From: Mesorhizobium huakuii
GTDB taxonomy: Bacteria > Pseudomonadota > Alphaproteobacteria > Rhizobiales > Rhizobiaceae
Assembly: GCF_014189455.1 (NCBI RefSeq)
Contig: NZ_CP050296.1
Location: forward strand, 248,001-312,000
DNA: 64,000 bases
Direction of reading: 5' to 3'
Shown here piece after piece: positions 21,698 through 24,600 of the stretch (positions are counted from its first letter, which is position 1; each line of letters begins with the position of its first letter). The notes under the pieces are model-generated. The model saw only the letters and a program-made list of their open reading frames with translations, did not search any database and was not told the DNA's origin. A program made the translations under genes and the position numbers.

Positions 21698-24600
21698 ATG
21701 CCGGAGACTAAAGCCATGGCCGCGAAATGGGATTTCTGGATCGATCGCGGCGGCACGTTCACCGACGTCATCGGCCGTGACCCGCAAGGCGGGCTGCATC
21801 CGCGCAAGCTGCTTTCGGAGAATCCCGAAGCCTATGCCGATGCCGCCATCCAGGGCATCCGCGATCTGCTCGGCGTCGAACCTGGCGTCGCGATCCCGTC
21901 CGGCCAGATCGGCGACATCAAGATGGGCACCACGGTCGCCACCAACGCGCTTCTGGAGCGCAAGGGCGACCGCGTGCTGCTGCTCATCACCAAGGGCTTT
22001 CGCGATGCGCTCAGGATCGCCTACCAGGCGCGTCCCGACATTTTCGCCAAGGAGATCATCCTTCCCGAGCAGCTCTATGAACGCGTCATCGAAATCGACG
22101 AGCGCGTGCTCGCCGATGGCTCCGTCGAACGGCTGCTCGACATCGCCGCGTGCCGGCCGGCGATCGAGCAGGCGAAGGCCGACGGCATCGATGCCGTGGC
22201 AATCGTCTTCATGCATGCCTGGAAATACCCCGACCACGAGAAGGCGGTGGCAAAGGTCTGCCGCAAGATCGGTTTCGCCCAAGTCTCTGTCAGTCACGAG
22301 GTCTCGCCGCTGATCAAACTGGTCGGCCGCGGCGACACCACCGTGGTCGACGCCTATCTCTCGCCCATCCTGTCGCGCTATGTGCAAAGGGTGGCGGGAG
22401 AACTGGGTGCGGCGCGCGAGAGCGACCAAACCCCTCGCCTCATGTTCATGATGTCCTCGGGCGGACTCACCGCCGCCGACATGTTCCAGGGCAAGGACGC
22501 GTTGCTGTCGGGTCCGGCCGGCGGCGTTGTCGGCATGGTCGAGACGGCGAAGCTCGCCGGCTTCGAAAAAGTCATCGGCTTCGACATGGGCGGCACCTCC
22601 ACCGACGTCGCCCACTATGATGGCGAATATGAGCGCGCCTTCGACACCGAAGTCGCCGGCGTTCGCGTCCGCGCCCCGATGATGCGCATCCACACCGTCG
22701 CCGCCGGCGGCGGTTCGATCCTGCATTACGAGGCCGGCCGTTTTCGCGCCGGACCGGACTCCGCCGGCGCCAATCCCGGCCCCGCCGCCTACCGGCGCGG
22801 CGGGCCGCTCGCCGTCACCGACGCCAACGTCATGCTTGGCAAATTGCAGCCCGATTTCTTCCCGGCCATTTTTGGCCCCGGCCAGAACGAACCGCTCGAT
22901 GTCGGCACCGTGCGCAAGAAATTCAGCGCGCTGGCCGCCGAAATCGGCGATGGCCGAACGCCCGAGGCCGTCGCCGAAGGTTTTGTCACCATCGCTGTCG
23001 AGAACATGGCCAATGCCATCAAGAAGATTTCCGTGCAGCGCGGCTATGATGTCACCGAATATTTGCTCAACTGTTTCGGCGGTGCCGGCGGCCAGCACGC
23101 CTGCCTGGTCGCCGACGCGCTCGGCATGGAAGCGGTGCTGATCCATCCTTTCTCCGGTCTGCTTTCAGCCTATGGCATCGGCCTGGCGTCGGTCTTTGCC
23201 TCGCGTCAGCAGGCGCTGCTCAAGCCGCTTGCAGAGGAATCCAGAACCGAGATCGGCAGCCTCATCGCCATCTTGAAAAAGGCCGTCATTGCCGAACTCG
23301 CGGCGCAAGGCATTGCCGAGGACGCGGTTGCCACCAAGCCCGTGCTGCACATCCGCTATGACGGCACGGACACGACCCTGCCGGTGAATTTCGAAAGTGA
23401 CTCGATTTTCCAGGCGAAGCGCGATTTCGAAATCGCCCACAAGGCACAATTCGGCTTCGTCTATGACGACAAGCCGATGATCGTCGAGACGGTCGGTGTC
23501 GAGGGCGCAGAAATCGGCGAAAGCAGCGCCGAAGCCTATGCGCCCGCCGGACCGGCAAGGATTGAAGCCGGCGCTTCCGGAACACGCCGCATCTACACCG
23601 AAGGCCGGTGGCATGAAGCCGGCATCCATCGTCGCGAAAACCTGCGCCCATCCAATCTGGTCGCAGGCCCCGCCCTCATCATCGAACCGAACCAGACCAT
23701 CGTCGTCGAGCCAGGCTGGCAGGCCGAAATCACCAACCTCAACCACGTCGTGATCCGCCGCACGGAACGGAAAGCGCGCGCCGCCGCCCTTGGCACAAAC
23801 GCCGATCCGGTGATGCTGGAGGTCTTCAACAACCTGTTCATGTCGATCGCCGAACAGATGGGTGTCACGTTGCAGAACACCGCCTATTCCGTCAACATCA
23901 AGGAAAGGCTGGATTTTTCCTGCGCCGTCTTCGACCACACCGGGGCGCTGGTCGCGAACGCACCGCACATGCCGGTGCACCTCGGCTCGATGGACCGCTC
24001 GGTCGAAACCATCATCCGGCTGAATTCCGGCGACATCCACCCCGGCGACGTCTTTGCCTTGAACGCACCTTACAATGGCGGCACGCATTTGCCCGACATT
24101 ACCGTGGTGACGCCAGTCTTTTCCCTCCCCCTTGAGGGGAGGGTGGCCGCTCAGCGGCCGGGCGGGGTCCTCTCAGAAGGCACCGCAAGAGCGCCGAGCC
24201 CGGTCGATCCGACCCCCTCCGGCGGCTTCGCCGCCACCTCCCCCTCAAGGGGGAGGAAATTCTCTTCTACGTTGCCTCGCGCGGCCATCACGCCGATATA
24301 GGCGGCACCGCCCCTGGCTCGATGACGCCGCTCGCCACCACGGTCGACGAAGAAGGCGTGCTGTTCGACAATTTCCGCATCGTCGACCGCGGAAAATTCC
24401 GCGAAAAAGAGCTGCATGCGCTGCTCACCGACCATCGTTACCCCGCCCGCAACCCGCATCAGAACATCGCCGACCTCAAGGCGCAGATCGCCGCCAATGA
24501 GAAAGGCGTCGCCGAGCTGCGCAAGATGGTCGCGCATTTCGGCCTCGATGTCGTCGAGGCCTATATGGGTCACGTCCAGGACAATGCGGCCGAAAGCGTG

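Follow-up and report, generated by a model that had tools for sequence, protein, structure and literature searches.

The gene for a fused 5-oxoprolinase of the HyuA-HyuB type (oplA) in a Mesorhizobium genome carries a 140-bp palindrome inside its coding sequence, which raises the question of whether such a repeat disrupts the gene or can be tolerated as part of the protein. We analyzed the locus in a window of 64,000 nucleotides, the whole stretch of DNA considered here (C1:248001-312000), from a genome of 8.4 Mb. The gene contains the Pfam domains Hydant_A_N, Hydantoinase_A, Hydant_A_C, and Hydantoinase_B. When compared by tblastn, the intact orthologue of a relative (G145) gave matches spread over three frames of the window gene, and its protein is 95 to 97% identical to the three window pieces. 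The next best match listed in the source genome is only 34% identical, and no close second copy is present among the matches listed. The features of the locus are as follows.

21698..25466 (+): OplA gene, frame broken twice as assembled (ORFs, Pfam, tblastn)
21698-24301, 24322-24819, and 24804-25466 (+): ORFs of the OplA gene pieces (ORF list)
22409..22420 (+): OplA site 1, place approximate, at about residue 229; empty in the window (alignment of relatives)
24119..24258 (+): A-type palindromic element occupying OplA site 2 (inverted repeat, fold, dispersed copies, relatives)
24121..24169 (+): left arm, pairing ungapped with the right arm (82% complementary)
24170..24210 (+): middle segment, 41 nt; orientation varies among relatives
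24211..24259 (+): right arm (inverted-repeat comparison)
24249..24253 (+): right-arm run of five Gs, where 19 of the 22 A-type copies in relatives have six
24783..24785 (+): one base differing from three relatives, by which the frame is broken a second time (tblastn and comparison)

An earlier note on this DNA had described a 140-bp element with inverted ends inside the fused 5-oxoprolinase gene, and both its place and its inverted ends were borne out. The 49-nt arms pair ungapped at 82% complementarity, and the inverted repeat spans about 139 bp. The predicted minimum free energy is -95 kcal/mol, compared to a mean of -68 kcal/mol for shuffled sequences (z, -6.28), and none of 200 shuffles folds equally well. 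The element thus has the terminal inverted repeats by which MITEs are recognized. Within the window, its core pattern (up to three mismatches) matches just the two arms of the OplA copy. Across the whole window, an RNase P RNA of bacterial class A (18297-18696, -) is the sole Rfam match at gathering thresholds.

The element is a dispersed repeat. The element stretch has 45 matches in the source genome when both strands are counted, many of which are partial. Fourteen matches at an E value of at most 1e-4 in this genome represent 12 distinct places. Four of these places lie in genes, in the coding frame. Besides the OplA copy, a search for further copies inside genes, as proposed in the earlier note, yielded two in a gene for an E2 acyltransferase and one, in frame, in CobN. 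Copies of the repeat occur within genes and seemingly outside them as well. An element unique to the source strain is ruled out by these dispersed copies together with the occurrence of the same element in relatives. Four of the six reading frames of the A-type element are stop-free in all 18 copies of relatives.

To see how the gene is occupied in relatives, 146 genomes of the same genus, the source genome included, were searched, and 140 gave a close match. The source genome and three genomes with only 69 to 75% identity (G070, G013, and G110) were left out, giving 136 genes. Five genes that were short or broken (G137, G157, G079, G105, and G113) were then dropped, so that 131 genes, all of them open frames of more than 1,000 amino acids, were aligned. 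Inserts of 25 or more extra residues were counted as full. At site 2, the site of the window element, 30 of the 131 proteins have a full insert, 5 a partial one, and 96 none; at site 1, the corresponding numbers are 49, 5, and 77, with site 1 unsure in G125 and G024, whose genes begin at a contig edge. Full inserts at both sites occur in 25 proteins, and 71 have neither insert. The comparison with OplA of relatives suggested in the earlier note likewise gave 3 A-type, 3 B-type, and 23 empty alleles among 29 loci.

Most of the full inserts are recognizable as the element. Two peptide types, A (PLEG..SPSRG) and B (ISPLVGEMSAKPTEGG..GISPTRGE), were distinguished at the OplA sites, and short remnants such as EERPISPTRGEIGQSPK retain hardly more than the arm ends. 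Judged from the peptide motifs, site 2 has 29 element-like inserts among its 30 full ones, the last one (G149) being so by eye, and site 1 has 43 among 49; the motifs are absent from the remaining six at site 1 (G006, G085, G111, G148, G156, and G159). The middle segment of the A-type element at site 2 is forward in 15 and reverse in 5 of 20 classified copies. In G161, G097, and, as judged by peptide, G149, the left part of another type is joined to an A-type right part. The sequences show that relatives carry two or more palindrome types, lying in either orientation, in the same stretch of OplA. In one relative (G129, locus L155), the site-2 element is itself lengthened by 12 residues (HGSCLRQARGQA), which may represent a nested repeat. 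Beyond the genus, other strongly folding palindromes sit in frame at both OplA sites of an Aminobacter (L254), and one more does so at site 1 of a Pseudolabrys metagenome-assembled genome (L282).

In a sequence alignment with N-methylhydantoinase (7hk5), site 2 adjoins a two-residue gap and site 1 lies at a three-residue gap. This is consistent with both sites being length-variable loops, an alignment of this kind falling short of proof that they are surface exposed.

The inserts almost always keep the reading frame. Because all 131 aligned genes are open frames of more than 1,000 amino acids, frame retention among them is partly a matter of selection; for this reason, the five dropped genes, the window, and G031 were judged apart. 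Among the dropped genes, G079 has no insert, and G105 (both sites) and G113 (site 1) have theirs in frame, both genes being broken elsewhere. The gene of G157 begins past both sites, and G137, whose frame could not be judged, was put aside as a potential assembly chimera. Taking the 131 genes together with G105 (both sites) and G113 (site 1), 82 of the 84 inserts judged keep the frame; the exceptions are the window copy and G031, in which the frame is lost inside a site-1 element. Before site 1 of G105 and G113 were added, binomial tests against a null of one in three gave 1e-35 for 80 of 82 inserts and 2e-15 for 36 of 38, both of them rough values since the inserts share ancestry. On contig C400 of G137 (L150 and L252), UvrD is joined to OplA at the element core in an open chimera of 728 amino acids, which reflects either a recombination event that joined two elements lying within genes or chimeric assembly in this many-contig draft.

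The element is not confined to oplA. A search with the insert peptides in 61 genomes provided 18 places in long ORFs, picked from the matches listed. At 15 of the 18, the match lies in the coding frame of a recognizable conserved gene: UvrD/PcrA (6), E2 acyltransferase (3), UvrB (2), XdhC (2), GlyS (1), and CobN (1). The other three (L236, L242, and L244) are apparently spurious ORFs and were excluded from the domain scan. Six of the 15 places were scanned against NCBIfam and Pfam, the other nine being named by likeness only; UvrB, GlyS, XdhC, and E2 score above the NCBIfam cutoffs, while PcrA and a partial CobN score below these but pass those of Pfam. The UvrB insert is located within an N-terminal extension ahead of the conserved part, and the E2 inserts sit in linkers. 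Examination of 30 loci each showed the element at one loop of UvrD in 11 of 28 readable loci (the source genome, included here, is without it) and in E2 at 6 of 19 readable loci. Alongside the palindrome peptides, a different peptide type (SAEGRKPDRASEPLRGPRGGPAPAGAEQP or ..AGQAAPAEASERSER) recurs in many UvrD loops (L363 to L392) and may be a dispersed repeat of its own; similar letters are also found at OplA site 1 of G085 and G111. At the level of the family, a profile of the insert peptides, applied to no more than 36 candidates in each genome, matches at least 48 of 199 genomes and at least 36 of 109 genera; among the matches listed, the A peptide was found in none of 24 genomes of other families. 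In another genus of the family, an open frame of 938 amino acids (G327:C6:128133-129593) has three element-peptide matches. Compared across many species, the in-frame dispersed palindrome thus has a scattered presence and absence in conserved genes.

On a FastTree gene tree of OplA, at least 21 changes between full and not-full states are needed at site 1 and at least 17 at site 2, although these counts are inflated by recombination. Within the site-2 insert (18 A-type copies), pN/pS equals 1.11; outside the insert, the value is 0.144 (17 of the same genes). As judged from these ratios, the insert codons at site 2 evolve neutrally and the rest of the gene is constrained. Since pS is also lower in the site-2 inserts (0.135) than in the rest of the gene (0.383), the inserts are younger or homogenized. 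At site 1, pN/pS equals 0.67 (13 copies), and these inserts could be under weak constraint.

The flanks of the window element give a hint of how it arrived. In the first 60 bp downstream, the window is nearest to G065 and G081 (98 and 95% over 58 aligned bases), both of them occupied genomes, and the far upstream and far downstream flanks are nearest to G160 and G080. This fits an import of the element on a short recombination tract, thin as the evidence is. Occupied alleles are about 15 nt short of the empty site, and no target duplication is evident when occupied and empty alleles are compared by eye, where the flanks may have recombined. A match to the Y1/RAYT transposase (PF01797) is absent from the source genome and present in 5 of 14 control genomes; mobilization by RAYT is thereby ruled out for this genome, in which no mobilizer was identified.

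The window copy departs from its relatives in frame only at its far end. The earlier note had located the problem in the left arm, proposing that this arm lacks one G, that adding the G would perfect the palindrome, and that the element would then read as about 46 codons rich in Arg, Gly, and Leu. However, no gap is needed for the arms to pair, and the same run of four Gs is present in all four relatives aligned, which rules out the left-arm base as the source of the frame problem. The window follows the frame of its relatives until the right arm and loses it at the run of five Gs (24249-24253), so the G difference sits in the right arm. Nineteen of 22 site-2 A-type copies of relatives have six Gs here, and the other three stay in frame with other letters. 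The 46-codon reading is contradicted as well: relatives use another frame, one that gives the letters SPSRGEE. That the proposed frame looked open too follows from two of the three forward frames being open in all 18 copies of relatives. A second single-base break, which the earlier note had placed near 24783, is indeed present near 24784 in tblastn and in the comparison with three relatives, and its count of 1,257 codons after two added bases agrees with the arithmetic (3,769 + 2 = 3,771 nt, stop included).

Other genes of the window were examined for similar breaks, OplA being kept outside this set. Measured against three relatives, the window has 4, 5, and 6 broken ORFs among 29 orthologous ones, in contrast to 0 of 28, 2 of 26, and 1 of 28 in control pairs of relatives. 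Four recurrent breaks, like the second break in oplA, are single-base differences on which the three relatives agree; G145 shows two extra gaps in one stretch of this comparison. The window is not set apart from the control pairs by total gap counts, the excess being confined to genes. Single-base frame breaks relative to three relatives are found in the conserved genes at 9724-11153, 11153-12605, 14774-16431, and 19693-20443. Elsewhere in the source genome, the E2 acyltransferase gene with its two element copies loses its frame at a C run of one arm. Because the source genome has three E2-like matches, this E2 gene need not be essential.

The window copy by itself could be taken as an ordinary disruptive repeat. 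As assembled, oplA goes out of frame at the element and a second time near 24784, none of the listed matches in the source genome offers a close second copy, and the frame of G031 is likewise lost within an element, at site 1. If the frameshift and the insertion are both real, oplA is a pseudogene in the source strain, a reading that we regard as unlikely but deserving of some weight. It sits poorly with protein pieces that remain 95 to 97% identical to the intact G145 protein, with the single-base breaks in four conserved neighbor genes, and with the E2 gene, which also loses its frame at a C run of an element arm. Single-base indels also disrupt those four neighbors and, near 24784, OplA itself, which makes an assembly indel the likeliest cause of the frame break at the element, and we judge an assembly error considerably more probable than a pseudogene. 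If so, the strain would make full-length OplA with an extra loop. For annotators, this means that genes with such an insert are readily labeled pseudogenes because of a single miscalled base in a G or C run, and the annotation of the source assembly may show false pseudogenes.

A protein that retains the insert might also put it to use, for instance as a flexible linker or regulatory loop under selection, beyond mere tolerance. Different palindrome types do fill the same stretches repeatedly, other genera included, and the pN/pS of 0.67 at site 1 points the same way; the ratio of 1.11 at site 2, the 71 of 131 OplA proteins with neither insert, and the dissimilar peptides that fill the same slot argue against it and make a selected function improbable. 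The insert peptide itself is most likely without function. The very stable predicted RNA hairpin (-95 kcal/mol) would suit removal of the element from the mRNA or ribosomal frameshifting at the hairpin, in which case the DNA frame would be irrelevant; yet 82 of 84 inserts keep that frame, which would be needless under either process, and we consider this explanation very improbable indeed.

We therefore favor, with considerable confidence, a dispersed palindrome of about 140 bp in free-living rhizobia that resembles the Rickettsia palindromic elements (RPEs), is tolerated within proteins, and occupies, swaps in, and leaves the same loops. The coding-tolerated, RPE-like element suggested in the earlier note is strongly supported by the in-frame inserts of relatives, with the window copy itself off frame as assembled. 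The element can sit in protein genes of Mesorhizobium and other genera of its family with the frame kept open. Under the mechanism that we propose, the insert would be translated, and the element would move as a non-autonomous repeat, spread between lineages on recombination tracts, and be swapped between copies. Persistence inside a gene, possible because the G+C-rich element sequence has several stop-free frames, would be limited to proteins that tolerate an extra flexible loop of about 25 to 75 residues and to lengths that keep the frame. On balance, we also lean toward a broader reading for free-living Hyphomicrobiales, in which certain stretches of core enzymes would be open slots where palindromic mobile-repeat families are inserted, exchanged in type and orientation, and deleted to remnants, nearly always in frame. 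Coding selfish DNA would thereby alter protein lengths rapidly, in a species-specific and largely neutral manner, and to an extent for which the literature surveyed gives no example beyond the Rickettsiales.

Several known repeats invite comparison. RIME elements are rhizobial palindromic mosaic repeats, and the Mesorhizobium element, as a rhizobial palindromic repeat, is like them in general description. REP and BIME sequences are dispersed palindromes as well; however, a REP unit is given as 20 to 40 bp (PMC3733652), in contrast to an inverted repeat of about 139 bp here, and the source genome is without a PF01797 match. Palindromic amphipathic repeat coding sequences, as outlined in their report, are palindromic repeats in coding sequence that are spread among bacteria, but they concern intragenic tandem repeats and are set beside the element by description only (PMC2996958). 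MITEs of enterobacteria and Neisseria such as ERIC, the 107-bp NEMIS, and YPAL/RU-2 have stop-free frames and form in-frame gene fusions (PMC2229807). The Mesorhizobium element is similarly a small inverted-repeat element with stop-free frames that lies in frame in genes; it differs in that no target duplication is evident and that its occupancy of the enzyme is spread over the genus.

The closest likeness is to the RPEs and their Wolbachia counterparts (WPEs), which are described as dispersed palindromes, intergenic and within genes, that lie in frame in conserved proteins and are apparently tolerated (PMC2229807, PMC10969869, PMC3767692). RPEs measure 105 to 146 bp and lay in frame in 19 genes when first reported, and a guanylate kinase with an RPE insert is still active (PMC2229807); a similar process in other prokaryotes has been called conceivable (PMC10969869). 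Among titles and the starts of abstracts, mainly of open-access literature, no report of in-frame palindromes in Mesorhizobium was found, which is no proof of novelty; palindromes are also unmentioned in PMC554113, which cites the Rickettsia work, and in PMC5994717, on Ensifer repeats. Like the RPEs, in so far as these reports characterize them, the 140-bp Mesorhizobium element is palindromic, multicopy, and in frame in conserved genes. Unlike them, it belongs to a free-living host with a large genome outside the Rickettsiales, more than one palindrome type is found per protein stretch, and the stretch is empty in many species. The likeness is one of description, and with a host outside the Rickettsiales, we refrain from classing the element as an RPE. 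So far, in-frame palindromes have been described chiefly in Rickettsia and Wolbachia; here, they occur in conserved genes of soil bacteria with large genomes, where many sequenced species offer either empty or occupied alleles and make entry, exchange, neutrality, and effects on the enzyme testable in culturable organisms.
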